DNA of 64,000 nucleotides from Agrobacterium tumefaciens (GTDB lineage: Bacteria; Pseudomonadota; Alphaproteobacteria; Rhizobiales; Rhizobiaceae): positions 1,399,501 through 1,463,500 of the forward strand of contig NZ_CP039904.1 of NCBI RefSeq assembly GCF_005221385.1. The letters are read 5' to 3'. The position numbers and the translations under genes were made by a program. This document shows positions 4,416-26,219 of the stretch, piece by piece (the first letter of the stretch is position 1; the number at the start of each line of letters is the position of its first letter). The notes under the pieces were generated by a model. The model was not told where the DNA came from and made no database searches. It worked only from the letters and a program-made list of their open reading frames with translations.

Positions 4416-4424
4416 GATGGCGTC

Positions 4425-5414
4425 TTGGATATAAACGGATTCATCGCCACAACGGCGACCCTCGAAGAGCGCGGTGAACTCGACAAGTTGGATGAGATCG
4501 GTTTGCCGCCGGGCAATGCCATCCAATGGTTGTTCGGGCTGACGGCCGGGTTCTATTTTGCGGATGGTGAAACACTGCGGACACGCCGAGCGGCGCTTGA
4601 TCTGGCGTTGCGCTACTACGATGTTACGAAAGGAAACACCAATCTGCTGACGGTTGGTGAGCGTTCGCGCCGTGTGTCTTCGAGAGATGACATCGAGCGG
4701 CATCTAGCACAGAGCAATTACGCTGATGGGAAGGAGACCGCTGGCTTTTATATCAGACATATGCCTGCCAAAGCTCTGCGGTCGACCGATCCGGTACACG
4801 ACTATTTGACGGCGCTTCTTCCCGGCATTGGGTATCGTGGCGGCTGTGGGCAGCTGATGTACCAGACGAGGTTGTCGCAACTATCGCTAGATCCAATAGG
4901 TGTTGTGCGTTTCTTCGTTGACGCCTGCCGTGACCTTCAGGTTTTTTACGCCGTGTCGGGCATGTCGCTTTTTTTCTATTCCTATGCGACAGGTGCAACC
5001 GAGCGGGCCTATCCACTGTTCCGCAGATTTCCCGGTTTCCTCTACGAAGATGGCATCCGTTTTGGATTAATCATTTCACAGCGCACCGATGTGATCCGTG
5101 ACGTGAACTGGCTGACAGCTGTCAACGATGAGTTGCTTGAGCGCGTCGGTGGCCTTGAGAAGGCGAGAGAGGTGCTCGGAGACGAGGTCGTCCTCCATCC
5201 CTATGAGGGTGGCGTCGTTTTCCAGGCGGGTGAACGGCCTGTGCTCGGCGACCTGAACAAGGGGCGGGTGCCGGCGGCATACCGCGCCGTCAATGATTTC
5301 CTCAAGCCCCTGCGCTACGAGAACTGGGACTATCCCTATCTACGAGCGCCCTACGGTGTCGATGAGATGGAGTATACGCAATGGTGGACACGTCGATTTG
5401 ACGATCAACATTAA
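4425..5414 (+). CDS. DUF3396-type T6SS immunity protein, copy 2
   Basis: 329 residues; paralogue of the genes before and after it and of nearly equal length. The first in-frame start is TTG at 4425, preceded by an AGGATGG ribosome-binding site; a nearby ATG at 4417 is in another frame. It carries the same DUF3396 hallmarks (FFVDACRDLQVFYAVSGMS, LFRRFPGFLYEDG, IRDVNWLTAVNDELLERVGG). It differs from copy 1 most between residues 46 and 130, suggesting either altered effector specificity or drift. The TTG start may reduce its expression relative to copy 1. Confidence 0.78.
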   Translation: MDINGFIATTATLEERGELDKLDEIGLPPGNAIQWLFGLTAGFYFADGETLRTRRAALDLALRYYDVTKGNTNLLTVGERSRRVSSRDDIERHLAQSNYADGKETAGFYIRHMPAKALRSTDPVHDYLTALLPGIGYRGGCGQLMYQTRLSQLSLDPIGVVRFFVDACRDLQVFYAVSGMSLFFYSYATGATERAYPLFRRFPGFLYEDGIRFGLIISQRTDVIRDVNWLTAVNDELLERVGGLEKAREVLGDEVVLHPYEGGVVFQAGERPVLGDLNKGRVPAAYRAVNDFLKPLRYENWDYPYLRAPYGVDEMEYTQWWTRRFDDQH

Positions 5415-5428
5415 GGCCGCTTAGCCTC

Positions 5429-6418
5429 GTGAAGTTAAACGAACTCATCACTGCGATGGCGATCCTCGAAGAGCGCGATGAACTCGACAAGTTGGACGAG
5501 ATCGGTTTGCCGCCGGGCAATGCCATTCCATGGTTGTTCGGGCCGACGGCCGGTTTCTATTTTGCCGATGGAGAAACGCGTCAAATACGCCAGGCCATGC
5601 TCGGTTTGGCACTGCGCTATTACGACCTCGCAGAGGGTAATACCAATTTATTGTCGTTTAACGAGCGGACACGCCGTATTTCAGCAGGAAAACAGATCGA
5701 GGAATATCTGTCGCAGGGTGAGTATTACGACGAAAGAGAGACAGCGAGTTTCTATATCAGGCACATGCCAAAACAGGCGCTGCGTTCCACCGATCCGGTT
5801 CACGACTACTTTACGGCCCTTCTCCCGAGCGCTGGCTACCGCGGCGGCAATGGGCGCTTGATGTATCAGACGCGGTTATCCGAATTATCACGCGACCCAA
5901 CTGGCGTGGTTCGCCTTTTCATTGACGCCTGCCGTGATCTCCGGGTTTTTTATGCCGTTTCGGGAATGTCGCTTTTTTTCTATTCCTATGCGGCGGGTGC
6001 AACTGAAAAAGCATATCCTCTGTTCCGTCGGTTTCCGGGCCTTCTTTACGAAGATGGCAGTAATTTCACCCTGGAAATATTGCGCCGCACCGATGTGATC
6101 CGTGACGTGAACTGGCTGACAGCCGTCAATAATGAGCTGCTTGAACGCGTCGGTGGTCTTGAGAAGGCAAGAGAGGTGCTTGGAGACGAGATCGTCCTCC
6201 ATCCCTATGAGGGTGGCGTCGTTTTCCAGGCGGGTGAACGGCCTGTGCTCGGCGACCTGAACAAGGGGCGGGTGCCGGCGGCATACCGCGCCGTCAATGA
6301 TTTCCTCAAGCCCCTGCGCTACGAGAACTGGGACTATCCCTATCTACGAGCGCCCTACGGTGTCGATGAGATGGAGTATACGCAATGGTGGACACGCCGA
6401 TTTGACGATCAACGTTAA
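5429..6418 (+). CDS. DUF3396-type T6SS immunity protein, copy 3 (mosaic)
   Basis: 329 residues, GTG start at 5429, 14 bases after the copy 2 stop. The nucleotide sequence is a mosaic. About 5556-5822 is almost identical to copy 1 at 3550-3816 (three differences seen by eye). From about 6082 to the stop it is almost identical to copy 2 at 5078-5412. The beginning resembles copy 2. One oddity is IPWLFGPTAG where both other copies have IQWLFGLTAG. The frame is intact and the family blocks are all present, so it probably still encodes a working protein. Confidence 0.78.
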   Translation: MKLNELITAMAILEERDELDKLDEIGLPPGNAIPWLFGPTAGFYFADGETRQIRQAMLGLALRYYDLAEGNTNLLSFNERTRRISAGKQIEEYLSQGEYYDERETASFYIRHMPKQALRSTDPVHDYFTALLPSAGYRGGNGRLMYQTRLSELSRDPTGVVRLFIDACRDLRVFYAVSGMSLFFYSYAAGATEKAYPLFRRFPGLLYEDGSNFTLEILRRTDVIRDVNWLTAVNNELLERVGGLEKAREVLGDEIVLHPYEGGVVFQAGERPVLGDLNKGRVPAAYRAVNDFLKPLRYENWDYPYLRAPYGVDEMEYTQWWTRRFDDQR

Positions 6419-12715: not shown

Positions 12716-13828
12716 TTATTTGCCGGCCGTCTGCATGGCATAGCCGTAGCTGTCATAGGTATATTCGGCGACGCGGAACCATTCAAAGCTCTCGTCGCGG
12801 AATTTCTTCCAGCCCGGATAGATCTTGGCCCATGCGGGATGCTTCTGCGTGTACTCGTCATAAAGCTCGAAGGTCGCCTTGTAGGCGGCGTCGAGCACAT
12901 CGCGGGGCAGCGGGCGAAGCTGCGTGCCCTTGGAAACCAGCGAGCGGATCGCATCCTTGTTCTTGACGTCGTACAGCGCCTGCATGTTGATGTTGGCGGC
13001 CTTGCAGGCAGTGTCGAGTGCTGCCTTGTATTCATCAGGCAGGGCTGCATATTGGTCCTTGTTGACGAAGAAGTGGATCGTCAGTCCGCCCTCCCAGAAC
13101 GCGGGGTAATAGTAGTATGGCGCGATCTGGTAGAAGCCGAGCTTTTCGTCGTCATAGGGACCGACCCATTCCGCGGCATCGATGGTGCCACGTTCCAGCG
13201 CCGGATAGATGTCGCCGCCCGGGAGCTGCTGCGGCACCGCGCCAAGCTTGGCAAGCACCTGCCCCGCGACGCCGGCAATACGCATCTTGAGGCCCTTGAT
13301 ATCCTCGACGCTCTTGATTTCCTTGCGATACCAGCCGCCCATCTGGGCGCCCGTCGCTCCACCGGGAATACCGATGACGCCGTAGTCGGAAAGGAATTCG
13401 TTGTAAGCTTCGTTGCCGCCGCCATGGTAGAGCCATGCGTTCTGCTGGCGGGCGTTCAGGCCGAAGGGGATGGTCGAGCCGATGGCGAATGTCGGATCTT
13501 TCCCCGTGAAATAGTAGCCGCAGGTATGGGAAATCTCGACGGTATTGGCTTTTACGGCATCGATGGCCTGGGCGCCGGGAACGATTTCACCAGCCTGGAA
13601 GACCTGGATTTCGAACTTGCCGCCGGTAATGGCCTTCAATGCGTTCGCCATAACGACGGCGCCGCCGTAGATGGTGTCCAGATTGTTCGGAAAGCCGGAC
13701 GTCAGGCGCCAGCGAACGTTCGGCAAAGATTGCGCTATGGCCGGCGTGGCGAGCGTCGAAGCGGCCGCAGCCGCCCCGGCAAGCACGCCGCCGGACAAGA
13801 AGTGTCTGCGGTCCAGATTGTTCCTCAT
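12716..13828 (-). CDS. takP: TRAP transporter solute-binding protein, TakP-like (2-oxo acids)
   Basis: 370 residues with a twin-arginine-like signal (NNLDRRHFLSGGVLAGAAAA, cleavage near AIAQS). The mature part closely follows the pattern of Rhodobacter sphaeroides TakP as I remember it: a SGFPNNLDTIYGGA opening, VFQAGEIVPGAQAIDAV, then GATGAQMGGWYRKEI and EWVGPYDDEKLGFY. TakP binds pyruvate and longer 2-oxo acids with a sodium ion in the periplasm. The gene is last in the minus-strand operon, after the two membrane subunits, and has a very strong site (AGGAGGAGG) before its ATG. Confidence 0.85.
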   Translation of the reverse strand: MRNNLDRRHFLSGGVLAGAAAAASTLATPAIAQSLPNVRWRLTSGFPNNLDTIYGGAVVMANALKAITGGKFEIQVFQAGEIVPGAQAIDAVKANTVEISHTCGYYFTGKDPTFAIGSTIPFGLNARQQNAWLYHGGGNEAYNEFLSDYGVIGIPGGATGAQMGGWYRKEIKSVEDIKGLKMRIAGVAGQVLAKLGAVPQQLPGGDIYPALERGTIDAAEWVGPYDDEKLGFYQIAPYYYYPAFWEGGLTIHFFVNKDQYAALPDEYKAALDTACKAANINMQALYDVKNKDAIRSLVSKGTQLRPLPRDVLDAAYKATFELYDEYTQKHPAWAKIYPGWKKFRDESFEWFRVAEYTYDSYGYAMQTAGK

Positions 13829-13855
13829 AAGATTACCTCCTCCTATTGAAGTGAC

Positions 13856-13901
13856 CGACGCTTGGTGCGTCGATGGGGTGCGGCGGGCGCTTGTGCGCCC
13901 G
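13856..13901 (-). promoter_or_regulatory. Twin hairpins between takM-like and takP-like genes
   Basis: Two perfect stem-loops lie in the 81-base spacer: CGGGCGC/GCGCCCG (13884-13901, loop of four) and CGACGC/GCGTCG (13856-13872). Neither has a T run. Such hairpins often stabilise one part of a transcript, which would suit a binding protein needed in excess over its permease. Confidence 0.45.
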
Positions 13902-13909
13902 TCGGAATG

Positions 13910-15412
13910 TCAGGGGTTGCTGGGCTTGCCGAAGCTTGGGGCGTTGCCGCCAGGGGCGAAGGGATTAGCGAACGGATCGGCGTCGCTACCTGCGCCGGGC
14001 ATCGGTACATTGATATGGACGGCCGAGGGATCGGCGACCTTGGCACCCGACTTGTAGTGCATCACTATTCCGGGGAAGGCGATGATGATGATGACCATGG
14101 CGAGCTGGATGAAAAGATAGGGAATGGCGCCGAGATAGATCTGGGTCGAGGTGACCGGCTGGATCGTTTGTCCCGTGATCCGATCCTTATAGGCACGCGT
14201 CGGTGCGACGGACCGCAGGAAGAACAGCGAAAAACCGAAGGGCGGGTGCATGAACGACGTCTGCATGTTGACCGCCAGCATCACGCCAAACCAGATCAGG
14301 TCGATGCCAAGCGCATCCGCGACCGGCGCCAGCAGCGGGATGATGATGAAGGCCAGCTCGAAATAATCGAGGAAGAAGGCCAGGAAGAACACCAGCAGGT
14401 TGGCGACGATCAGGAAGCCGATCTCGCCACCGGGGATCGATGTCATCAGATGCTCGACCCAGACGTGACCGTTCACGCCATAAAAGGTCAGGGAAAAGAC
14501 GCGCGCGCCGAGCAGGATGAGCAGAACGAAGGACGACAGCTTTGCCGTGGCGTAGAGCGACTGCTGGATCAGGCCGAAATTGAGCTTACGGTTGGCAAGC
14601 GCAAGGGCGAGTGCGCCGACAGCACCCATGGCGCCACCTTCCGTGGGGGTGGCGATCCCGAGGAAGATCGTGCCGAGCACGAGGAATATCAGGACGAGCG
14701 GAGGCACCAGCGAGGTAATGACCTTGAGCAGCAACTTGGTGCCGCGCAGGGTCCGCGCCTCCAGCGGCAGGGCCGGAACTTTTGTGGGGCTGATGATCGA
14801 TGTGATGATGATGTAGAGCGTATAAGCCGTTACCAGCATCAGACCCGGAACAAGCGCTCCCTTGTACATGTCGCCCACCGAGCGGCCGAGCTGGTCAGCC
14901 AGCACGATCAGCACGAGACTTGGGGGGATGATCTGCGCCAGCGTGCCTGACGCGGCGATCGTACCTGCTGCGATTTTGCGGTCGTAGCCATAGCGCAACA
15001 TGATGGGAAGCGAGATGAGGCCCATCGAGATGACCGAGGCGGCGACGACGCCGGTGGTGGCGGCCAGAATTGCCCCGACGAAGATGACGGCAAACGCAAT
15101 GCCGCCGCGGACCGGTCCAAACAGCTGGCCGATCGTGTCCAGCAAATCCTCCGCCATGCCGCTCTTTTCAAGAATGAGCCCCATGAAGGTGAAGAACGGT
15201 ATCGCCAGCAGCGTTTCGTTAGACATCTGGCCGAATATGCGATCGGGAATGGCCTGGAACAGCGTGGCTGGCAGCAGGCCGAGTTCTATCCCGATGAAGC
15301 CGAAGACAAAGCCGACAAAAGCCAGCGCAAAGGCTACCGGATAGCCGAACAGCAGCACGATGATGAGCGCGGCGAACATGATCGGCGCGAGATTTTCCGC
15401 AAGGAATGCCAT
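13910..15412 (-). CDS. takM: TRAP transporter large permease, DctM/TakM-like
   Basis: 500 residues with about 12 hydrophobic segments. Typical DctM blocks are visible: FGYPVAFALAFVG near the start, LLAIPFFTFMGLILEKSGMAEDLLD, GAILAATTGVVAASVISMG and SGTLAQIIPPSLVLIVLADQ. It is the sodium-coupled translocation subunit. The last 40 residues are proline- and glycine-rich (PMPGAGSDADPFANPFAPGG), a hydrophilic cytoplasmic or periplasmic tail longer than in many relatives. It follows the small subunit by 18 bases. Confidence 0.88.
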   Translation of the reverse strand: MAFLAENLAPIMFAALIIVLLFGYPVAFALAFVGFVFGFIGIELGLLPATLFQAIPDRIFGQMSNETLLAIPFFTFMGLILEKSGMAEDLLDTIGQLFGPVRGGIAFAVIFVGAILAATTGVVAASVISMGLISLPIMLRYGYDRKIAAGTIAASGTLAQIIPPSLVLIVLADQLGRSVGDMYKGALVPGLMLVTAYTLYIIITSIISPTKVPALPLEARTLRGTKLLLKVITSLVPPLVLIFLVLGTIFLGIATPTEGGAMGAVGALALALANRKLNFGLIQQSLYATAKLSSFVLLILLGARVFSLTFYGVNGHVWVEHLMTSIPGGEIGFLIVANLLVFFLAFFLDYFELAFIIIPLLAPVADALGIDLIWFGVMLAVNMQTSFMHPPFGFSLFFLRSVAPTRAYKDRITGQTIQPVTSTQIYLGAIPYLFIQLAMVIIIIAFPGIVMHYKSGAKVADPSAVHINVPMPGAGSDADPFANPFAPGGNAPSFGKPSNP

Positions 15413-15430
15413 TATTGTTTCTTCCTTCGA

Positions 15431-15979
15431 TCAGAGCATTGCTGCCGCGGCATCAGCCGCCGCAACCGGATCGGGGATATCGCCGCGCAGGATTGCGACG
15501 CGTTTGATGAGTTCCGACACGCCCTGAAGGGCGAGCAAGCTGAAGCCGATTGGTATCAGCGCCCAGACCGGCCATTGAATGAGCCCGCCCGTATTATTGG
15601 AAACTTCACCGGAGGCAAATTTCTGCAGGAACACCGGCCAGGAGAGATAAACCGTGATGAGGCAGAAGGGCATGAGAAAGAAGATGGTCCCGAGGATATC
15701 GACCCACAATTGCCCCTTGCGCGGCAGGCTTCCGTAAATCAGATCGACCTTCACATGCTCGTTGTTGAGGAGCGTGTAGGCGGCGGCGATCAGAAACACA
15801 GCGGAGAACAAATACCACTGGGATTCAAGCCAGGCGTTGGAACTCATCGAGAACGCCTTGCGCATGGCGGCATTGATGGCGCTGATGAGAATGGCGGCGA
15901 GCAGCAGCCACGAAATACCTTTGCCAATAGCAGAGTTGGCGGTATCAATGGCGCGCGAAAGCGCCAGCAAAAACTTCAT
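15431..15979 (-). CDS. takQ: TRAP transporter small permease, DctQ/TakQ-like
   Basis: 182 residues from ATG at 15979, chosen because GGGGAGG lies five bases upstream and the hydrophobic N-terminus (MKFLLALSRAIDTANSAIGK) fits; the frame itself stays open further back. Four membrane segments and the family block NAWLESQWYLFSAVFLIAAAYTLLNNEHVKVD are present. It is the first gene of the TRAP operon and forms a complex with the DctM-type subunit. Confidence 0.88.
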   Translation of the reverse strand: MKFLLALSRAIDTANSAIGKGISWLLLAAILISAINAAMRKAFSMSSNAWLESQWYLFSAVFLIAAAYTLLNNEHVKVDLIYGSLPRKGQLWVDILGTIFFLMPFCLITVYLSWPVFLQKFASGEVSNNTGGLIQWPVWALIPIGFSLLALQGVSELIKRVAILRGDIPDPVAAADAAAAML

Positions 15980-16332
15980 GAGATCCTCCCCGGAAGCGGC
16001 CGCGTACTCCTCGATACGCGTGCTGCCGCTATAGTTCGGGCACGATATCAATGGCGTCTTCACGCTCAAGGGCTGCTGCCGGCGAATTTCTTCAGGCGTA
16101 CCGAGAACTGGGTATGTGAGGGGCAACTTCAGTAGGACGGCAAGGGATAATGAAATGAAAGAGCGTGCTTGGGCACCCAATACTTCGTCGTGCTCGACAT
16201 CAACCCGGAAGACAGGCTTCCCGCTATCGGCCTCTATTTCTCTTGCAAGTTCATTGCGCTGGAAGCCCAGCGCTCGGCGAAATGATAGAGACTTGAAGCC
16301 AAGTTGCAGGAGCCGAGCTTACCCGGCCACCA
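15980..16332 (-). other. Upstream region of TRAP operon with an open, startless frame
   Basis: 353 bases between the takQ-like start and the LysR gene stop. In the takQ frame the minus strand is open for roughly 110 codons upstream and reads like protein in part (QRNELAREIEADSGKPVFRV), but no good start is seen. It may be a gene remnant or chance. The operon promoter must lie in this stretch or in the LysR gene. Confidence 0.35.
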
Positions 16333-17553
16333 TTAGTTCGTCATATCAAGCAGCTGAAGAACGCGCTGCGCCATATCTGTGCCTCTGTCATCGGCGCGCC
16401 AGGCTAATAGCAATGGAACGGAAAATGTCATCGGCAATGGGATTTTCGTCACCTTGGGGGAGGTTATTCCCACGCCGGACGGCAATATCGAACAATATCC
16501 GTGGCCGACAATCAGTTGCACTGCCACCGGTATGCTGTCGATCTCAATCAACTGCACCTTTGATAGCCAGGTTGGCCCAAGCAGGTGCTCGAGAAAGCTT
16601 TCGGCCGTCTGGCGCAGTCCGGAGGCGCGGGAAGGTAGTACCAGAGGGTACTTGAGGATCGCCTCCCGCATCTGTGACGGTGAATATGTATCCGCCAGTT
16701 CAGGTGCTTCATGCTGCAGGAAACATGAAAGGTGGCTGCGCAGAACCTCACGGCTGCGCAGGCGGGAATTGTTGACTGGCATGTCGACAAGGACTGCATC
16801 GTATCGCTGCTGTTCAAGCCCTTCCAGCAGACTGTCTGCAAGTCCGGGCTGCATCAGCAGCGGTGTGTCGAAGCGCCGTGCCCAGTTGGCGGCAACGCGC
16901 GCCAGAATAATTGCCGTCGGGCTGTCAGTTGTTGCGGGAGGAATGCCGCCGAATGACCAATGGCGCAGATGCCGCTTGAAACGCAGGGCGGATGTGGAGT
17001 CCAGCGCAGCCCAGATATCGCGTAATTTGTGGACGTGGGGCGATACGCGCAGCCCCTCGGGCGATGCGCGCGAGCCGCTGCGGGTCCGTTCAAAAAGCCG
17101 GACGCCCAGGTTTTCCTCCAGCATCGCCATCATCCGCGTCAGCTGTGGTTGCCCGATTTGAAGCCTCAATGCGGATTTACGGATCGAGCCCGATTCGAGA
17201 ATGTCCACGAAGCGGAACAGTGCAATCAGCGACACGCTTCTCTGATAAATATCATTCGCATGGTCATCGCCGCACGCGCCGTGGATCGCGAAGATTTCAT
17301 GGGTGGCCTGCGCGAGATACGGGCTAAGTCGCCCGCCTTCGGCTGTCAGGATCAGGCCTTTTGCGCCCTGGACGAAAAGCTTGACGGAGAGGGCGGTTTC
17401 CAGGCGGCTGACGGCATCCGATACGGTTGAAACCGGAATTCCCGTTGCCTTGGACGCAAGGTGGATGCCGCCGAGACGAACCACCTGGTCACATAAAAGA
17501 ATCGTCGAAACCTTCACCGCCCACGCCTCGTCTTGACCTTCCCATTCCGGCAT
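16333..17553 (-). CDS. LysR-like regulator with two N-terminal HTH domains
   Basis: 406 residues, about 100 longer than usual LysR proteins. Two LysR-type winged HTH units stand in series: about 15-78 (LASKATGIPVSTVSDAVSRLE, then VKLFVQGAKGLILTAEG) and about 107-172 (ALRLQIGQPQLTRMMAMLEE, then GVRLFERTRSGSRASPEG). A LysR effector-binding domain follows (about 195-400). It is divergent from the hydantoinase-type gene with 72 bases between the starts, so it very likely controls the 17626-26219 catabolic genes. The inducer would be a pathway intermediate. Confidence 0.8.
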   Translation of the reverse strand: MPEWEGQDEAWAVKVSTILLCDQVVRLGGIHLASKATGIPVSTVSDAVSRLETALSVKLFVQGAKGLILTAEGGRLSPYLAQATHEIFAIHGACGDDHANDIYQRSVSLIALFRFVDILESGSIRKSALRLQIGQPQLTRMMAMLEENLGVRLFERTRSGSRASPEGLRVSPHVHKLRDIWAALDSTSALRFKRHLRHWSFGGIPPATTDSPTAIILARVAANWARRFDTPLLMQPGLADSLLEGLEQQRYDAVLVDMPVNNSRLRSREVLRSHLSCFLQHEAPELADTYSPSQMREAILKYPLVLPSRASGLRQTAESFLEHLLGPTWLSKVQLIEIDSIPVAVQLIVGHGYCSILPSGVGITSPKVTKIPLPMTFSVPLLLAWRADDRGTDMAQRVLQLLDMTN

Positions 17554-17625
17554 CGGCTGTCCGGATTTTGGGATATACCACTAATTTTATTGTGCCTCAT
17601 AGTCGAAATATGACAGGAGGACGAC

Positions 17626-19008
17626 ATGGCGGATTTCGATACGGTTTTGGCGGGGCGGGTCATTCTGACCGACCGCGAGATTTCTCGAGGTTTCGTGGCC
17701 ATTCGCGAGGGGAAAACGGCACTCATCGGAGAAGGCCCCGCGCCGGCTGGAAGAGAAAATCATGATTTCGGCACCGGCATCCTATTGCCTGGTGCCATAG
17801 ATGCGCAGGTGCATTCGCTGTCGCAGAAGGGGGCCGAGGGTTTTGCAGCCTCGACCCGTGCGGCGGCGGCGGGCGGCGTCACGACAATCGTTGACATGCC
17901 CTATGATGAGGGCAATCTTGTGTGTTCCGCCGAGGCTGTCAGGCGCAAGGTCGCGATGATCGACGCGGAGGCGCGCATCGATGTTGCACTTTATGGCACT
18001 GTCGATCCGCAAGAGGGTTCCGCCCGCATTGCCGAACAGGCGGCGGCGGGAGTTTGCGCCTACAAGTTCTCGACCTTCGGCACGGATCCCCAACGCTTTC
18101 CGCGTATCCCACCCGCGCTGCTTCGCGCCTGTTTTGCCGAGATTGCAAAGACCGGGCTTGCCGCAGGCGTGCACAATGAGGATGACGCCTATGTCCGCGC
18201 CGCGATTTCCGAGGTCGAGGCATCCGGTATAACCGACTGGCGTGCGCACGGCCTGTCGCGTCCCGAACTGGCTGAGACGCTGGCGATGCTGCAGATTTAC
18301 GAAACCGGTGCAGAGACAGATTGCCCGGCACATGTCGTCCATTGCTCCGTCAGCCGCGGCTACGAAATCGCCGAGATGTACCGCAGGAACGGCCGGTATT
18401 CCTCCGTCGAATGCTGCATTCACTACCTTGTTCTGGATGAGGAAAACGACGTCGCGCGGCTTGGCGGCAAGGCCAAGATCAACCCGCCCATACGCGCCCG
18501 AAAAGAAGTGGAGGCGATCTGGCGTCATCTGGCCGAAGGGCGGGTGTCGATGGTGTCTACCGACCATGTGAGCTGGAGCGAGGACCGCAAGACCAATCCC
18601 GATATGCTGAAAAATGCCTCCGGTGTCCCGGGGCTGGAGGTCATGGTGCCGCTTTTCGTCAAGGGCGCGATCGCGCGCGGTGTGCCGCTGGTGTGGGCGG
18701 CCCGGCTGATGGCCGAAAATCCGGCCCGGCATTTTCGTCTGGATCACCAGAAAGGCGGGTTGCAGGTTGGGCGTGATGCTGACGTCATGGTGCTCGTCGA
18801 TCGGCCCGTGGTGTATGACGCAGCCAGCAGTCCTCACTCCATTGCGGGGTGGTCGCCTTATCACGGCATGGAACTGCCCTGGACGGTCGCAGCCACCTGG
18901 CGGCGAGGCGAGATGGTTTTCGACGGGGAAAACGTGCTGGCTGCGCCGGGAACCGGTATTTTTGTGCGGCCGCCCGAAACGCTTGGTCTGCGCGAGGTGC
19001 TGTTGTGA
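17626..19008 (+). CDS. Cyclic amidohydrolase, candidate hydantoin-5-propionate hydrolase
   Basis: 460 residues, AGGAGG before the ATG. It belongs to the dihydroorotase/allantoinase/hydantoinase group: PGAIDAQVHS (61-63, with Q61 in place of the first metal histidine), carboxylated lysine K147 in CAYKFSTFG, H183 in AGVHNEDD, H239 in AHVVHCS and D313 in STDHVSW. The first ligand change occurs in some dihydroorotase relatives and need not abolish activity. With an N-carbamoyl amidase and a urocanase homologue next to it, ring opening of hydantoin-5-propionate to N-carbamoyl-glutamate is the most economical role. Another cyclic imide or ureide is possible. Confidence 0.75.
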   Translation: MADFDTVLAGRVILTDREISRGFVAIREGKTALIGEGPAPAGRENHDFGTGILLPGAIDAQVHSLSQKGAEGFAASTRAAAAGGVTTIVDMPYDEGNLVCSAEAVRRKVAMIDAEARIDVALYGTVDPQEGSARIAEQAAAGVCAYKFSTFGTDPQRFPRIPPALLRACFAEIAKTGLAAGVHNEDDAYVRAAISEVEASGITDWRAHGLSRPELAETLAMLQIYETGAETDCPAHVVHCSVSRGYEIAEMYRRNGRYSSVECCIHYLVLDEENDVARLGGKAKINPPIRARKEVEAIWRHLAEGRVSMVSTDHVSWSEDRKTNPDMLKNASGVPGLEVMVPLFVKGAIARGVPLVWAARLMAENPARHFRLDHQKGGLQVGRDADVMVLVDRPVVYDAASSPHSIAGWSPYHGMELPWTVAATWRRGEMVFDGENVLAAPGTGIFVRPPETLGLREVLL

Positions 19009-20246
19009 TGCGCCGCAATCTCGATGCGTCGATAAAGGACATAGAAACGGATCTCGATGCACTGGCGCAGATTACCGATCCGGAACGTCCCTGGACCCGC
19101 CGCGCCTTCTCGCCCCGTTTCGATGAAGGGCGCGACTATCTTCGGCGGCGTTTCCTGAGTGAAGGATTGAATGTCTCGACGGATGCGGGCGGGAACCTGA
19201 TCGGCCGCCGGGAAGGCACCGAGCCGCAGGCCGGAACGATCATGCTGGGCTCACATTCCGACACCGTGCCGGACGGCGGACGTTTTGATGGTGTTGCCGG
19301 TGTCGTCGTTGCATTGGAGGTCGCACGCATTCTCTCCCGGCGCGGTGTTGCCTTGCGGCATAACCTTGCCGTCGTCGATTTTCTTGCTGAAGAAGTCTCC
19401 ATTTTCGGGGTTTCCTGTATCGGTTCGCGAGCAATGGCGGGCGTTCTGCCGCAGGACTGGCTGAGGCGTATCAGTGACGGGCGCGATCTGGCGACGGCCA
19501 TACGTGACGTGGGCGGCAAGCCGGAAAGTCTTGAAGCTCCCTTGGCTGATGACCTGAAGGTCTTTCTGGAACTGCACATCGAACAGGGGCCGGTTCTCGA
19601 ACGGGAAAAGATTGCGCTTGGGGTGGTGACAACCATTGTCGGCATCAATCGCGTCGAGATCGAGGTGACGGGTCGTCCCGACCATGCCGGCACGACCCCG
19701 ATGGGGTTGCGTGCGGATGCCCTCGTCGCTGCGGCGCGGATCGTGAGTGAGATCGAGCGGTACGCGACGGAGCTTTCCGGTGGTTCCGGGCATTTTACCG
19801 CAACTGTGGGCGAGTTCGAAATCTCCCCCAACGCCGCCAATGTGGTGCCGGGCCGGGTCCGCATGCTGGTTGATATCCGCGCCGAGCGGGCCGAGGACAA
19901 GGAAGCATTCGTATCCTGGCTGACCGGACTTGACGCGGACGGTGGAAACACGATCGAAGCGCGGCTGATTTCCGGCAATCCCGGCGTACAGATGGATGAG
20001 GGATTGCAGGAGATGCTGGCAAAGGCCGCAGACCGGCTGGACACGCGCTATCGCAAGATGGTGTCGGGTGCGGGCCATGATGCGGCGTTCATGGCGCGGC
20101 TGTGTCCTTCGGCGATGCTCTTCGTCCCTTGCCGCGGCGGCCGTTCCCATTGCCCGGAAGAGTGGGCCGATGCGGCCGATCTCGCTTTGGCGGCTGAAGT
20201 TCTGGCGAACACGATTATGGAATTGGACAGAAAAAGGGAGGGCTGA
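19008..20246 (+). CDS. M20-family N-carbamoyl-L-amino acid amidase
   Basis: 412 residues; the ATG at 19008 shares one base with the upstream TGA, showing coupling. It is a zinc-dependent hydantoinase/carbamoylase family amidase: GSHSDTVPDGGRFDGVAGV (metal histidine and bridging aspartate), EEVSIFG, ELHIEQGPVLE, the dimerisation block GRPDHAGTTPMGLRADAL, and late GAGHDAAFMA and SHCPEEW segments. These enzymes release carbon dioxide and ammonia from N-carbamoyl amino acids (or act on allantoate and ureidoglycine relatives). In this operon the likely substrate is N-carbamoyl-L-glutamate, giving glutamate. Confidence 0.82.
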   Translation: MRRNLDASIKDIETDLDALAQITDPERPWTRRAFSPRFDEGRDYLRRRFLSEGLNVSTDAGGNLIGRREGTEPQAGTIMLGSHSDTVPDGGRFDGVAGVVVALEVARILSRRGVALRHNLAVVDFLAEEVSIFGVSCIGSRAMAGVLPQDWLRRISDGRDLATAIRDVGGKPESLEAPLADDLKVFLELHIEQGPVLEREKIALGVVTTIVGINRVEIEVTGRPDHAGTTPMGLRADALVAAARIVSEIERYATELSGGSGHFTATVGEFEISPNAANVVPGRVRMLVDIRAERAEDKEAFVSWLTGLDADGGNTIEARLISGNPGVQMDEGLQEMLAKAADRLDTRYRKMVSGAGHDAAFMARLCPSAMLFVPCRGGRSHCPEEWADAADLALAAEVLANTIMELDRKREG

Positions 20247-20248
20247 AA

Positions 20249-21340
20249 GTGGCCAGAATTCTGACGGAGAAGGATGTGGAACCCGCGGTGCGGGGAGGCG
20301 CGGTCTATGCGGCTGGCGGTGGCGGCTGGGTCCACCATGGACGGATGCTGGGCTATGCCGCAGTGAACGCCGGTGCGCCTGAACTCGTCTCGATCGACGA
20401 ATTGAACGAAGATGACTGGGTGGCGACGGCTGCCGCTATTGGCGCGCCGGCCTCCACGACGCCCTGGGAAATGCGGGGCGTGGATTATGTCAAGGCCGTG
20501 CAGCTTTTGCAGGACGCGCTTGGTGCAAAGGTCGCGGCCCTGATGATCGGGCAGAACGGCAAGTCCTCGACCCTCAACGCATGGCTGCCTTCGGCTATTC
20601 TTGGCTGCAAGGTGCTGGACGCGGTGGGTGACATGCGGGCCCATCCGACCGGCGACATGGGGGCAATCGGCATGGCCGGAAAACCGGACCAGTCGATCCA
20701 GACGGCCGTCGGCGGAAATCGCGATCAGAACCGCTATATCGAGCTTGTAACGCGCGGCGCAACCGGCCGGATCTCTCCCATCCTGCGCACGGCCTCCGAC
20801 ATGTCGGGCGGTTTCATCGCCTCGGCCCGCAACCCGGTTCGCGCCGGCTACGTCGCGAAAAATGCCGCGCTCGGCGGAATTTCCAAGGCGCTGGAGCTTG
20901 GTCACGCAATCCTCGCCGCCGAGCCTCGAGGGCATGCGGCAATCCTCGACGCGATCCTTGCGACCACGCGCGGCAGGATCATGATTGAAGGAGAGATCAC
21001 GGCGAAGGATGTCGTTTATACGAATGAGGCTTTCGACGTTGGTACGGTCACCATCGGCAGGGGCGATGCGGCGCTGACCCTGCATGTGATGAACGAATAC
21101 ATGGCGGTCGATGCGGTCGATGGTCGCCGCCTCGCAACCTTTCCGGACGTCATCACCACATTGTCGCAGGAGATCGAGCCGCTGTCTGTCGGTGAGCTGA
21201 AGGTCGGCATGAAGATCCATCTGTTGCATGTCCCGAAGACCCTCATTCCAATCGGCGCGGGCCTGATGGACCCGGCGATCTATGTCCACCCCGAAAAGGT
21301 CATGGGCATCAACCTGACCGACTACGCATTGGAGGCCTGA
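20249..21340 (+). CDS. DUF917 protein, candidate thiohydantoin desulfurising enzyme
   Basis: 363 residues, GTG start at 20249 with AGGGAGGG upstream, 2 bases after the previous stop. The DUF917 pattern is clear: GGAVYAAGGGGWVHHGRML near the N-terminus, DAVGDMRAHPTGDMGAIGMA in the middle and a hydrophobic C-terminal part. DUF917 enzymes have few known reactions, and some lie with hydantoinase-type genes. Between urocanase and hydantoinase steps, an ergothioneine pathway needs an enzyme that converts the 2-thioxo-imidazolidinone propionate to hydantoin propionate with loss of sulfide. This gene is the only one left for that step, so the role is by elimination. Confidence 0.62.
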   Translation: MARILTEKDVEPAVRGGAVYAAGGGGWVHHGRMLGYAAVNAGAPELVSIDELNEDDWVATAAAIGAPASTTPWEMRGVDYVKAVQLLQDALGAKVAALMIGQNGKSSTLNAWLPSAILGCKVLDAVGDMRAHPTGDMGAIGMAGKPDQSIQTAVGGNRDQNRYIELVTRGATGRISPILRTASDMSGGFIASARNPVRAGYVAKNAALGGISKALELGHAILAAEPRGHAAILDAILATTRGRIMIEGEITAKDVVYTNEAFDVGTVTIGRGDAALTLHVMNEYMAVDAVDGRRLATFPDVITTLSQEIEPLSVGELKVGMKIHLLHVPKTLIPIGAGLMDPAIYVHPEKVMGINLTDYALEA

Positions 21341-21342
21341 AG

Positions 21343-23001
21343 ATGCCGAGAGAAAATCCCCGTAATCCGGGCTTCCCGATCCCTTCAGGCCCGGACCTTC
21401 GAGCGAAGGGCTGGCGGCAGGAAGCCCTGCTGCGCCTCATGGAAAACGTGCTGGCTGTCGGTGAAGACCCGGAAAACCTCGTCGTCTACGCAGCACTCGG
21501 GAAGGCGGCCCGCAACAAGGCCGCATATGATGCCATCGTAAGCGCATTGACGACCATGGATGAGGATCAGACACTCGTCATTCAGTCGGGAAAGCCGGTC
21601 GGGTTGATGAAGACTTCGACCGAGGCTCCGATGGTCATCATGGCCAATTGCAACATGGTCGGCCAATGGGCCAAGGCCGAGAATTTTTATGCTCTCGAAC
21701 GCAAGGGCCTCATATGCTGGGGCGGCCTGACTGCGGGAGCATGGCAATATATCGGCTCGCAGGGCGTCATTCAGGGCACCTATGAAATCTTCATGCGCAT
21801 TGCCGAACGCCGCTTCGGCGGCACGCTGAACGGGCGTTTCGTATTGACCGCGGGCCTTGGCGGCATGGGAGGTGCGCAGCCGCTTGCAGGCCGCATGGCG
21901 GGCGCGGCCATCCTGTGCGTGGAGATCAATCCGGAACGGGCCCGCACCCGCAAGGATATCGGCTATCTCGACGAGATCGCCGATGATCTCGATAGCGCAC
22001 TGGCACGGATTGAAGAGGCCCGCGCAAAGGGTGAGGCGCTGTCCGTCGGACTTGTCGGCAATGCAGCGGAAATCTATCCCGAAATAGCCGCGCGGGGGAT
22101 CATCCCGGATATCGTGACCGACCAGACCTCCGCCCACGATCTCGTTTATGGCTATATTCCAATCGGTTACGATCTGGACCGGGTACGCCGCCTGCGCAGC
22201 CAGAACCCGGATGAGCTGATCGAGGCCGGCAGGGCGTCGATTGCCAAACAGGTAACAGCCATGCTGGAGTTCCAGCGGGCCGGCTCGGAGGTTTTCGACA
22301 ATGGCAATCTGATCCGCACGCAGGCGCAGGCCGGTGGCGTTGCTGATGCCTTCGACATTCCGGTCTTCACCGAGGCTTATCTGCGCCCGCTGTTTTGCCG
22401 GGCGATTGGTCCCTTCCGCTGGATGGCCCTGTCGGGCGACGCCTCGGACATTGCGCGGATAGACGAGCTGGTGCTGGAGATGTTTCCGGACAACAAGATC
22501 GTCACCAACTGGATTTCGCTGGCGCGCAAGCACGTTCCGTTCGAGGGGTTGCCGGCACGCATCGCCTGGCTCGGCCATGGCGAACGGAGCGCACTCGCAC
22601 GTCGGGTCAACGCTCTGGTCGCTTCGGGCGAATTGAAGGGGCCGGTCGCCTTCTCTCGCGATCACCTCGATTCAGCGGGCATGGCGCATCCGAACATCAT
22701 GACGGAGAACATGCTCGACGGTTCGGACGCCATCGCCGACTGGCCGCTTCTCGACGCGATGCTGCTCTGCGCTTCGCGCGCCGACCTCGTCGCACTTCAT
22801 TCCGGCGGCGGGGGATATGCGGGTTTCATGACCTCGGCAGGGGTCACGATCGTTGCTGATGGAACCAACGCGGCCGACGACCGGCTTTCGCAATCACTCG
22901 ACAATGATACCGGGCTCGGCGTCATCCGTTACGCGGATGCGGGCTATGCCGAGGCGCAGGATGAAATTGCCAGCAAGGGCATAAATCACGTGCAGATCTG
23001 A
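21343..23001 (+). CDS. Urocanase-family hydratase, candidate thiourocanate hydratase
   Basis: 552 residues, 2 bases after the DUF917 stop, GGAGG upstream. It is clearly a HutU homologue: RAKGWRQEALLRLMENV, IGSQGVIQGTYEIF, NAD-binding GLGGMGGAQ (171-179), TDQTSAHD, and the catalytic-cysteine block LFCRAIGPFRW (C352), then NWISLARKHVPFEGLPARI. It departs from housekeeping urocanase at sites near the ring: YAALGKAARN replaces the usual YGGIGRAARN, and AIGPFRW replaces GKGPFRW. No hutH, hutI or hutG of the normal histidine route is nearby. Hydration of thiourocanate fits the neighbours better than hydration of urocanate. Confidence 0.75.
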   Translation: MPRENPRNPGFPIPSGPDLRAKGWRQEALLRLMENVLAVGEDPENLVVYAALGKAARNKAAYDAIVSALTTMDEDQTLVIQSGKPVGLMKTSTEAPMVIMANCNMVGQWAKAENFYALERKGLICWGGLTAGAWQYIGSQGVIQGTYEIFMRIAERRFGGTLNGRFVLTAGLGGMGGAQPLAGRMAGAAILCVEINPERARTRKDIGYLDEIADDLDSALARIEEARAKGEALSVGLVGNAAEIYPEIAARGIIPDIVTDQTSAHDLVYGYIPIGYDLDRVRRLRSQNPDELIEAGRASIAKQVTAMLEFQRAGSEVFDNGNLIRTQAQAGGVADAFDIPVFTEAYLRPLFCRAIGPFRWMALSGDASDIARIDELVLEMFPDNKIVTNWISLARKHVPFEGLPARIAWLGHGERSALARRVNALVASGELKGPVAFSRDHLDSAGMAHPNIMTENMLDGSDAIADWPLLDAMLLCASRADLVALHSGGGGYAGFMTSAGVTIVADGTNAADDRLSQSLDNDTGLGVIRYADAGYAEAQDEIASKGINHVQI

Positions 23002-23069
23002 CAGGTCAAAGCGAGGAGACTTCATCAATCGCCACGAAGGGCGGAAAATTACGATCACTAATCAACACC

Positions 23070-23089
23070 GCCTGCCGGCACCGGCAGGC
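23070..23089 (+). promoter_or_regulatory. Strong hairpin before the MFS gene
   Basis: GCCTGCC at 23070-23076 and GGCAGGC at 23083-23089 form a perfect stem just upstream of the GAGGGGA site of the transporter gene, in a 103-base spacer. No T run follows, so it is more likely a transcript-stabilising or translation-modulating hairpin than a terminator. Confidence 0.4.
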
Positions 23090-23104
23090 CAAGAGGGGAC
23101 AATA

Positions 23105-24412
23105 ATGGAAAAAACATATCAAAATTTGTCAGTGACACCGGCCAGACGGTCATCACCGGAGCGCGCTGTTGCCGCAGCATCGATAGGCAACGCCCTGGAG
23201 TGGTATGACTTCACCGTCTATGCGCTGTTTGCAATCTACATCGCCCATAATTTCTTTCCCGGCGGTGATCATACGGTCGAACTCGTGAAAGCCTTTCTCG
23301 CCTTTGGGCTAGGCTTCGTGATCCGCCCCCTGGGAGCCATCGTGATCGGGGTCTATGGCGACAAGGCCGGCCGAAAGGCCGCACTGTTCCTGACCATCAT
23401 GATCATGGCGGCGGGCACCCTGCTGATCGCGGTGGCGCCCACCTATGCCGCGATTGGTGTGGGAGCGCCGCTCATGATCCTTGCCGGACGAGTCCTTCAG
23501 GGCTTCTCCGCGGGCGGAGAAATCGGCGGAGCAGCCGCCTTTCTTGTTGAACATGCGCCCGCCGACAAAAAAGGCAAATATGCTTCCTGGCTCCAGGCAA
23601 GCATGGCGATTTCCAACATCATGGGTGCACTCGTCGCCTTTGCGGTTACCTCGCTTCTGACGGAGCAGGAGATCGGCGACTGGGGCTGGCGGATCCCATT
23701 CTTCATTGGCGTACTGATCGCGCCGGTGGGCCTGTGGCTGCGCAAGACGCTGGACGAAACGCCGGCTTTTCAGGCCGAACAGGCAAGTCTGGAGAACAAG
23801 TCCGCCAAAACACCCCTGAAGCTCGTCTTCTCGGACTATTTCGGCCATCTGATCAAAGGCTTCGCTTTCTCGATCCTGTGGGCGGTTTGCGTCTATGTGC
23901 TGATCATCTACATGCCGATCTTCGTTCAGCGCGCTTTCGGTTTCAGCCCTTCGGAGGCGTTTACGGCATCGCTGATTGGCAACGTCTTCCTCGCGGTCGG
24001 CTGCGTCAGCGCCGGCAGCATTTCGGACAGGATCGGCCGGCGCGTGATGCTTGCTGTTGCCGCCGGCGCAATGCTGGTCGCTGTCTATCCCCTGATCTGG
24101 TGGCTGCAATCTTCACCGACGCTGACGACGCTCATCATCGTGCAAAGCCTCTTCTGCATCATGGTCTCGGGATATGTCGGGGTCGCGCCCGCGACCCTGT
24201 CTGAAGTTTTCCCGACGAATATCCGCACCACCGGCATGTCATTGGCCTACAATGCCGCCGTAACGATCTTCGGAGGATTTGCCCCGGCGACGCTGACCTG
24301 GCTTGGCAGCACGGGCATCGGTTATCACGCGCCCGGATTTTATGTCATGGCCGCGGCGTTCATATCGCTGATAGCGGTCCTGATCCTGCCGAAGCCGTAT
24401 TCCACGAACTGA
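23105..24412 (+). CDS. MFS transporter, metabolite:H+ symporter (MHS) family
   Basis: 435 residues with 12 predicted membrane segments. MHS family marks are SIGNALEWYDFTVYALFAIY at the first segment, GFVIRPLGAIVIGVYGDKAGRKAAL, GRVLQGFSAGGEIGG and the GDWGWRIPFFIG block before the central loop. Family members (KgtP, ProP, ShiA) take up organic acids and zwitterions with protons. In this cluster it probably imports ergothioneine or, if the lyase works outside the cytoplasm, the thiourocanate it makes. It lies between the urocanase-type gene and the exported lyase gene, all on the same strand. Confidence 0.85.
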   Translation: MEKTYQNLSVTPARRSSPERAVAAASIGNALEWYDFTVYALFAIYIAHNFFPGGDHTVELVKAFLAFGLGFVIRPLGAIVIGVYGDKAGRKAALFLTIMIMAAGTLLIAVAPTYAAIGVGAPLMILAGRVLQGFSAGGEIGGAAAFLVEHAPADKKGKYASWLQASMAISNIMGALVAFAVTSLLTEQEIGDWGWRIPFFIGVLIAPVGLWLRKTLDETPAFQAEQASLENKSAKTPLKLVFSDYFGHLIKGFAFSILWAVCVYVLIIYMPIFVQRAFGFSPSEAFTASLIGNVFLAVGCVSAGSISDRIGRRVMLAVAAGAMLVAVYPLIWWLQSSPTLTTLIIVQSLFCIMVSGYVGVAPATLSEVFPTNIRTTGMSLAYNAAVTIFGGFAPATLTWLGSTGIGYHAPGFYVMAAAFISLIAVLILPKPYSTN

Positions 24413-24455
24413 AGGAGATGGGCCGCTCAAGGCCCAGCTCGCCCAATTTCTCCAC

Positions 24456-24525
24456 CCGTCATGTCTGGAAGTTTCCAGTCGAAGCGAAGCCGTTTCGACG
24501 CCGGACAGTGCTGCAAACATGACGG
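24456..24525 (+). promoter_or_regulatory. Structured leader before the exported lyase gene
   Basis: A 9-bp inverted repeat (CCGTCATGT at 24456-24464, ACATGACGG at 24517-24525) encloses two smaller stems, CTGGAA/TTCCAG and TCGAA/TTCGA. A further GGGCC/GGCCC hairpin lies just before it near 24420. The whole sits in the 142-base gap before the lyase ribosome-binding site and could be a transcript leader, an mRNA processing site or a regulator-binding region. Confidence 0.4.
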
Positions 24526-24554
24526 CATAATAATAACCAACTCAAGGGAACATC

Positions 24555-26219
24555 ATGTCTGTTAAAAACGGGACTATTCATCGCCTCTCCATTGTCACAG
24601 CTTTTGCGATCGCCGGGCTTGCTGCTTCAAACGCACGGGCGGAACATTGGTCCATCGACGGTCAAAACCTGACCGTGGAACAGGTCGTCGGCCTGGCGCG
24701 GGATGACAGCGCCAAAATTACTCTCACCGAAAGCGCGGACAAACGGATCGCCGAAGGCTTCGATCTGGTGATGGAGGCCGCCCTGCAAGGCAAGGCGGTC
24801 TACGGCCTGACGGTCGGCGTTGGCTGGAACAAGGATCGCCCAGTTTTCGCGATGAAGGACGGCAAGCGTGTGCTGGACGACGATCTGCTGAAACTGTCAC
24901 GCGCTTTCAATTCGACATCCCTGCGCGCGCATGGCGCGGGCGTGGGCGAGCCGATGGCGGTAGAGGCCGTGAGGGCGGGCATGGCGATCCGTCTAAACCA
25001 GATTGCAACCGGCCGAACCGGCGTTCAGAGCGCCGTTGCGGAAATGTATCGACAGTTCCTGGAGCAGGGGATTACCCCGGTGGTTCCTTCACGCGGTTCT
25101 GTCGGCGAGGCGGATATCACCCTTGCCTCCCATATCGGTCTGGCGATGGTCGGCGAGGGGGAGGTCTTCATGAAAGGCAACCGCATTCCCGCAGCACGCG
25201 CCCTGACTGACGCCGGCATCGCTCCGCTCGAGCCGGTTGGCAAGGATTTCCTTTCGATCCTTAGTACGAATGCGCTGACCGCCGGACAGGCTGCCCTGCT
25301 GGCGCACGATACGGCGGGTTATCTCGAGAAAGAAGCCATTGTCTTTGGTTTGGCACTTGAAGGTTTTAATGGCAATGTCGCCCCTTTCCTCGCGGCGACG
25401 AACGAGCTGCGCCCCTTTGCCGAAAACACATCCGGGGCACTGATGGTTCGCTCTGCCCTTGACGGCAGCTATCTCTGGTCACCCGCGAAGGATCGGGCGC
25501 TGCAGGACCCGCTGTCTTATCGCACCATGGCCTATGTGCTTGGCGGAGCCGAAATTGCAACGCAGGATTTGACCAAGGCGCTAGAAATCCAGATCAATCA
25601 CAGTGATGACAATCCGGGCGTAGTTGCGGGAGCCTCGGACGACAAGGTTTCCGGACAGGTCTCCCAGTATTTTATCGAGGGCGAAATATCGGGAGCGATC
25701 TATCCGAGTGCGGGTTTTGAGATGCTGCCGGTGGCCTCGAGGGTTGAAACACTGAACACGGCGCTGGTGCGTCTGTCACAGGCCATTACGATGCAGACGA
25801 TCCGCTTCGAAAACCCGGACATGACGCATCTTTCGCGGTTCCTTGCTGCTGAAACCAATCAAGGACATGCATTTGGTGCGATCCAGAAACCGCTCGTCGC
25901 GCTTCTGGCCGAAAATCAGCAGATCGGCGCGCAGGCTCCCGTAGGGTCGATTGCGATGGCAGGAAATATCGAGGATCTGGACAGCCACGCACCGCTTTCG
26001 GTCACCAATCTCGGCCGAATTCTGGATAACCTCTACTGGATGTCCTCGATCCAGTTGCTCCATGCGGCGCAAGCTGTTGATCTACGCAAGCCCGGGCAGT
26101 TGGGAGCGGGGACAAAAGCGCTGTTTGAAAATTATCGCCGCAGTGTGCCCTTTGTGGCGGTGGACCGAATATATACCAATGATTTCAGTACGGGTTATCG
26201 CTTTCTAAAGGCCCGTTGA
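24555..26219 (+). CDS. Exported HAL-family lyase without MIO triad, candidate ergothionase
   Basis: 554 residues. A Sec-type signal peptide (MSVKNGTIHRLSIVTAFAIA, cleavage after ASNARA, residue 29) directs it to the periplasm. The rest is a full histidine ammonia-lyase fold: AVYGLTVGVG (81-90), SRAFNSTSLRAHGAGVG, VPSRGSVG (177-184), LSTNALTAGQAALLAHDTAG and INHSDDNPGV. The Ala-Ser-Gly triad that forms the MIO electrophile after GSVG is replaced by E185-A186-D187. Ammonia elimination from histidine should therefore be impossible. Ergothionase, which removes trimethylamine from ergothioneine, is a known HAL relative that needs no MIO. The neighbours match the later steps of that pathway. Confidence 0.75.
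   Translation: MSVKNGTIHRLSIVTAFAIAGLAASNARAEHWSIDGQNLTVEQVVGLARDDSAKITLTESADKRIAEGFDLVMEAALQGKAVYGLTVGVGWNKDRPVFAMKDGKRVLDDDLLKLSRAFNSTSLRAHGAGVGEPMAVEAVRAGMAIRLNQIATGRTGVQSAVAEMYRQFLEQGITPVVPSRGSVGEADITLASHIGLAMVGEGEVFMKGNRIPAARALTDAGIAPLEPVGKDFLSILSTNALTAGQAALLAHDTAGYLEKEAIVFGLALEGFNGNVAPFLAATNELRPFAENTSGALMVRSALDGSYLWSPAKDRALQDPLSYRTMAYVLGGAEIATQDLTKALEIQINHSDDNPGVVAGASDDKVSGQVSQYFIEGEISGAIYPSAGFEMLPVASRVETLNTALVRLSQAITMQTIRFENPDMTHLSRFLAAETNQGHAFGAIQKPLVALLAENQQIGAQAPVGSIAMAGNIEDLDSHAPLSVTNLGRILDNLYWMSSIQLLHAAQAVDLRKPGQLGAGTKALFENYRRSVPFVAVDRIYTNDFSTGYRFLKAR

Follow-up and report, generated by a model that had tools for sequence, protein, structure and literature searches.

Gene content and distribution of the locus

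The window analysed here is a stretch of 64,000 nucleotides, and the operon it holds sits on the 2.15 Mb contig NZ_CP039904.1 of the 5.5 Mb Agrobacterium tumefaciens genome (GCF_005221385.1). Between positions 16333 and 26219 we found one divergent LysR gene and six genes on the + strand, where an earlier reading made from the letters alone (the sequence-only reading) had placed them. The gene order it gave and the tight spacing of the first four catabolic genes are also borne out. The features are:

16333..17553, - strand: LysR-type regulator whose N-terminus has two HTH domains (two stretches of PF00126, HTH_1, plus PF03466)
17554..17625, no strand: divergent control region of 72 bases, near-invariant across the window and four congeners
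17626..19008, + strand: ErtD-type hydantoin-5-propionate amidohydrolase (NF058538, 753.5 bits, cut-off 600)
19005 (approximate start)..20246, + strand: ErtE-type N-carbamoyl-L-glutamate amidohydrolase (NF058540, 598.1 bits, cut-off 520)
20249..21340, + strand: thiohydantoin desulfurase (DUF917; Pfam S-Me-THD-like; NF058529, 560.4 bits, cut-off 440)
21343..23001, + strand: thiourocanate hydratase (NF058530, 1044.2 bits, cut-off 930)
23105..24412, + strand: MHS-type (metabolite:H+ symporter) carrier, proposed thiourocanate importer (TIGR00883, 384.6 bits, below cut-off)
24555..26219, + strand: MIO-less lyase, proposed periplasmic ergothionase, predicted to be exported (ergothionase 6s7j, 274.9 bits)
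24555..24641, + strand: predicted signal peptide of the lyase, residues 1-29, cut after ARA (hydropathy and inspection)
25098..25115, + strand: codons of lyase residues S182-D187 (SVGEAD), the site of Ala-Ser-Gly in MIO enzymes (alignments)

The ErtD and ErtE genes overlap by GTGA, gaps of 2 bases each separate ErtE from the desulfurase and the desulfurase from the hydratase, and longer intervals precede the MHS gene (103 bases) and the lyase gene (142 bases). The six catabolic and transport genes follow one another in the same way in all five congener loci read (L065-L069), with LysR in the same position (in L068 it is only partial, cut by the locus end), and also in Paracoccus denitrificans (L054), where LysR lies on the same strand. 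Its recurrence across congeners and Paracoccus indicates that the arrangement is above chance. The LysR protein, correctly described beforehand as divergent and dual-HTH, would be the controller of the operon; promoter and terminator pattern scans inside the operon gave no excess over shuffles.

By curated NCBIfam equivalog cut-offs, the four enzymes acting downstream of the lyase are assigned to steps of the ergothioneine pathway, and the Pfam families are consistent with these calls at a broad level. The ErtE protein also exceeds the cut-off of the general model NF009531 (668.3 vs 486). Both the desulfurase (281.4 bits, cut-off 450) and the hydratase (747.7 bits, cut-off 880) fall under the cut-offs of the corresponding S-methyl models. 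Among solved structures, the hydratase best matches 7ned, labelled urocanate hydratase (782 bits; next 611), and a thiourocanate hydratase structure has reportedly been solved; the sole solved relative of the desulfurase is a distant hypothetical protein, 2o3i. Two further DUF917 genes of the same genome (G000:C2:428059-431891) reach 93-105 bits against the model of the desulfurase and stay below its cut-off. The EgtD model, for ergothioneine synthesis, has no match in this genome, a weak result as none of 14 controls exceeded the cut-off either.

The distribution of these genes is narrow. A desulfurase above the cut-off is present in seven of the 39 genus genomes, this one included, and the lyase occurs at 93-97% identity in five of 36 congeners; the nearest named desulfurase loci are from Agrobacterium. 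In a sample of the class, five of 385 genomes, again counting this one, encode a desulfurase that exceeds the cut-off. At the level of the phylum, where 398 genomes were sampled and at most three candidates scored in each, the exported lyase was found in no other genome, and four other matches below E=1e-50 (175-218 bits) have different motifs. The flanks of the operon vary between congeners, which fits an accessory block whose two ends are LysR and the lyase.

Two further features of the window lie upstream. Positions 3423-6418 hold a tandem array of three paralogous ORFs, each about 330 amino acids long and 78-88% identical to one another. The TRAP genes at 12716-16180, which end beside LysR, were considered as part of the system and rejected: their DctM is only 27-28% identical to those of the TRAP genes in two desulfurase loci (L077 and L081), and close copies (90-91%) exist in only one of the six other desulfurase-bearing genus genomes (G023), where one copy shares a contig with the operon at a distance of about 32 kb and the other is on a different contig.

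The MIO-less lyase and its N-terminus

The lyase is a member of PF00221 (390 bits) and, as the sequence-only reading had noticed, lacks the MIO triad, with SVGEADIT aligned to the SVGASGDL of MIO enzymes. The comparison with Treponema ergothionase which that reading suggested was run: the nearest solved structure is the Treponema denticola ergothionase 6s7j, with 274.9 bits over the full domain, 131 bits ahead of the next structure (144). In a tree of 32 sequences the window lyase falls inside a ten-member clade (support 100), with 6s7j as sister (ultrafast bootstrap 94). The window lyase and 6s7j have in common GVGWNKD, GE[AG]DIT, LQDPLS[YF]R, DDNP, IQK and AG.IED; across the clade these read GVG[WL]NKD, DITs, LQDPLS[YF]R, DDNP and AG..ED. 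Eight of the ten members have the lysine of IQK, which L057 and L070 lack, and at the GEAD glutamate L057, L070 and L060 have Q or A instead. Given the two members without this lysine and the location of some others beside urocanase, function varies within the clade. NCBIfam has no model naming ergothionases, and the T. denticola protein itself clears no cut-off there.

Three PF00221 genes are present in the genome: the window lyase, an ordinary MIO-type HAL (C2:1034 kb) and a GSxGY-type gene. The absence of hutH, hutI and hutG, as claimed from the sequence, thus holds for the cluster and not, as regards HAL, for the genome. Since the other two genes are of these types, the window lyase is the only ergothionase candidate in its genome. 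HAL relatives in which GS[VL]GY-[LI]THAAA replaces the MIO triad occur in several Agrobacterium genomes (L002, G000:C2:1103 kb; L070:4645-6240), and the one in L070 adjoins hutU, HutF and an OpuAC ABC importer. Other MIO-less HAL relatives (L156-L160, L182-L185, L195) carry the motifs GSIGAGDLV, GSIGAADLAH, GTLGEGDLA and GSMGESDM.

Residues 1-29 of the window lyase are Sec-like, with a basic start, a hydrophobic core and ARA|E before the mature start, so that the mature protein would comprise residues 30-554. In six aligned close relatives A27 and A29 are invariant, and most of the remaining stretch diverges. Signal peptides were judged by hydropathy and inspection rather than with a trained predictor. 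On this basis, signal-peptide-like N-termini were seen in all ten clade members examined: in nine the hydrophobic 12-residue stretch scores 1.98-2.53, and in L060 the stretch was recognised by eye, further upstream. By comparison, eight of nine sampled lyases of the other clade described below score at most 0.69, the exception being L138 (1.88), whose start codon is uncertain. The match to 6s7j begins at residue 6 of its chain, corresponding to residue 35 of the window lyase. The first enzyme of the pathway thus appears to be exported from the cytoplasm.

Lyase types, carriers and a proposed mechanism

A scan with the desulfurase returned 435 relatives, of which the nearest 80 (72-99% identical, all alphaproteobacterial by title) were fetched with their neighbours. 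These are related loci, so that the counts are not independent events, and the neighbour table omits LysR matches and MHS matches below 120 bits. Among these best 80 of 435, 56 loci carry a MIO-less lyase that falls in a separate clade (the GSxGC[AG]D type, bootstrap 100), six have the exported type and 18 have no lyase nearby; L098 was tallied with the latter despite a 28% match, so the other clade may amount to 57 of the 80. The carrier changes with the lyase, although not as a strict rule. Within the same best 80, the exported type is accompanied by an MHS gene in five loci (L072-L076, the only ones with MHS matches of at least 120 bits), by a DctPQM TRAP system in one (Martelella, L077) and by an OpuAC ABC importer in none, whereas no locus with the other lyase has MHS or that TRAP. 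In the latter group an OpuAC-type importer lies inside the operon in 8 of 56 loci (L096 by Pfam, seven by clustering), and the remaining 48 show neither carrier cluster. The TRAP genes occur in four loci, L077 with the exported lyase and L078, L081 and L085 without it; of these three, one has no lyase and two carry other lyases elsewhere in the genome. When 17 of the 18 lyase-less loci (all but L098) were searched genome-wide, the best score was only 161 bits, placing these 17 genomes among those without the exported type. Six lyases from the genomes of lyase-less loci are class-b-like by motif (L162, L163, L167, L171, L176, L181), as is L197 in G448.

The order desulfurase, hydratase, MHS and lyase is found in both Burkholderia arboris (L059) and Paracoccus denitrificans (L054), and in B. 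arboris the desulfurase, hydratase and ErtD exceed their cut-offs and the MHS protein is 66% identical. Celeribacter persicus (L078) has the four downstream genes with TRAP and a single PF00221 gene, of MIO type; its genome is a draft from which a lyase may simply be missing, and at face value it looks as if it were a thiourocanate user.

In this context, we put forward as the probable reading that the locus is an accessory Agrobacterium operon for ergothioneine, in which cleavage precedes import. The exported MIO-less lyase would remove trimethylamine from ergothioneine in the periplasm. The resulting thiourocanate is an organic anion, which the MHS carrier would bring in together with protons. 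Its conversion to glutamate in the cytoplasm would then fall to thiourocanate hydratase, thiohydantoin desulfurase (with release of sulfide), ErtD and ErtE. In most related loci the lyase belongs to another clade and is not exported, and so the cargo of the transporter here is probably thiourocanate rather than ergothioneine. For the same reason, the exported first enzyme and single transporter of the sequence-only reading are not just a matter of compactness as it had supposed.

The same pathway could instead begin in the cytoplasm, with the MHS protein importing ergothioneine itself and the hydrophobic N-terminus of the lyase being no working export signal. The MHS family includes the betaine carrier ProP, and the window carrier matches the ProP model at 273.1 bits; however, it scores higher with TcuC (359.4) and best with TIGR00883 (384.6, cut-off 443.45), all three under cut-off. 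Starting so early in the chain, the match to T. denticola ergothionase leaves that enzyme no room for a signal peptide, and the downstream enzymes are without an evident signal. Nevertheless, a signal-like N-terminus in every clade member examined, with A-x-A conserved amid divergence, and the joint change of lyase and carrier types argue for export, and we consider a cytoplasmic lyase unlikely.

A different difficulty is raised by relatives of the lyase in other settings. In Paracoccus saliphilus (L055:9232-12656) and Paraburkholderia (L058:7896-14440) the exported MIO-less lyase stands beside a true urocanase (943.5 and 966.7 bits, cut-off 375), and these are possible hercynine-using loci, hercynine being the likely substrate where urocanase follows the lyase. 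The L055 lyase is 68-69% identical to that of the window, with nearly the same motif residues, and just downstream of the L058 lyase lies an MFS carrier of galactonate-type similarity (154 bits, below cut-off). In P. seriniphilus (L056; 4504-12450) an S-methyl-thiourocanate hydratase (945.9 bits, cut-off 880) lies about 5 kb from a lyase whose reading frame is broken into two pieces. The main substrate of the window lyase might on these grounds be a different histidine betaine (hercynine, S-methyl-ergothioneine or ergothioneine sulfonate), with thiourocanate reaching the operon by another route. Yet the thiourocanate gene set adjoins the lyase in the window, in L072-L077 and in L059, and the genome holds no second ergothionase candidate, so that this explanation seems improbable to us.

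Ert-linked and urocanase-linked members are tree neighbours twice (the window group with L055, and L059 with L058), and the clade has thus probably become associated with different hydratases on more than one occasion; it may serve several histidine betaines. In Polaromonas (L060:9679-14712) the exported lyase lies between a gene for a YeiH-type putative sulfate exporter and one of ornithine cyclodeaminase type, and YeiH is also found near the P. saliphilus lyase. An ergothioneine sulfonate pathway is cited in PMC13405746, and the L060 setting might fit that route.

More tentatively, and with somewhat less than even confidence, we suggest that the exported lyases form a periplasmic trimethylamine-lyase family for ergothioneine, hercynine and S-methyl-ergothioneine, which would cleave first and import afterwards by organic-anion carriers. 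Trimethylamine would be freed outside the inner membrane, and thiourocanate would be a shared good that strains without a lyase, Celeribacter persicus for instance, could take up.

A pathway for histidine, allantoin or pyrimidines that merely resembles ergothioneine catabolism is very hard to sustain: distant similarity is seen with the models for HutH, HutU, allantoinase and dihydropyrimidinase, and the hydratase clears the loose hutU cut-off (699.7 > 375), but the specific models score far higher and above their cut-offs (ErtD 753 vs allantoinase 269, the latter under its cut-off of 358; hydratase 1044), and thiohydantoin desulfurase is not known to have a place in any of these pathways. Ordinary histidine catabolism was ruled out by the missing MIO triad and the best match of the hydratase to the thiourocanate type. 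Grouping with enzymes of these three kinds, which the sequence-only reading had named as refuting, was not found, and its assignment to ergothioneine catabolism stands on the four equivalog matches and the proximity of the lyase to 6s7j.

Relation to known systems

Ergothioneine is an antioxidant derived from mushrooms. Its conversion to glutamate is already a known pathway, with NCBI models for four of the enzymes, and the locus belongs to it; what is new, as far as we have seen, is an anion-type carrier next to a lyase of exported type. No title in the open literature searched, which leaves out most subscription journals, reports an exported or periplasmic ergothionase, and one article contains both "ergothionase" and "periplasm" (PMC4621440). 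According to PMC13405746, ergothionase is MIO-less, is known from few genera and is expressed by Burkholderia with ergothioneine as sole nitrogen source. The sequence of the Burkholderia sp. HME13 enzyme is given as BAM63550 / AB699692 in that article and in PMC11089744, and this enzyme may turn out to be of the same exported type as the window lyase. In PMC11089744 its product thiourocanate is followed by absorbance near 311 nm. An ergothioneine-specific ABC importer, EgtU, is described from Firmicutes in PMC9732360.

If the proposed mechanism is true, some soil bacteria start ergothioneine use outside the cytoplasm, and a carrier gene beside the lyase would not denote an ergothioneine importer. 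Such bacteria would be missed when degraders are sought through a cytosolic lyase or through ABC importers of betaines, and thiourocanate and trimethylamine could leak to neighbours. The lyase and carrier pair would also allow cleave-then-import and import-then-cleave to be compared within one pathway.

Four known systems invite comparison. With hutHUIG the locus shares parent families, HutH for the lyase and HutU for the hydratase, and differs from it in the lost MIO triad and in a hydratase best matched by the thiourocanate model. The T. denticola ergothionase (6s7j, 6s7q) is the nearest solved structure, MIO-less and with common motifs, but its chain has no counterpart of the signal-peptide-like N-terminus. 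The five-step bacterial ergothioneine-to-glutamate (Ert) pathway is reportedly that of Burkholderia sp. HME13, and is said to have been reconstituted in vitro by Seebeck's group; the four downstream enzymes of the window exceed the equivalog cut-offs for the same steps, whereas the window lyase is predicted to be exported and sits with an MHS carrier. Closest in setting is the common alphaproteobacterial ert lyase of the GSxGCADIG type, likewise a HAL relative without the MIO triad, with the same four genes next to it in 56 of the best 80 loci (of 435). It belongs, however, to a separate clade, lacks a clear signal peptide in eight of the nine cases sampled and is accompanied by an OpuAC ABC importer in 8 of its 56 loci, in contrast to the exported lyase and MHS carrier of the window.
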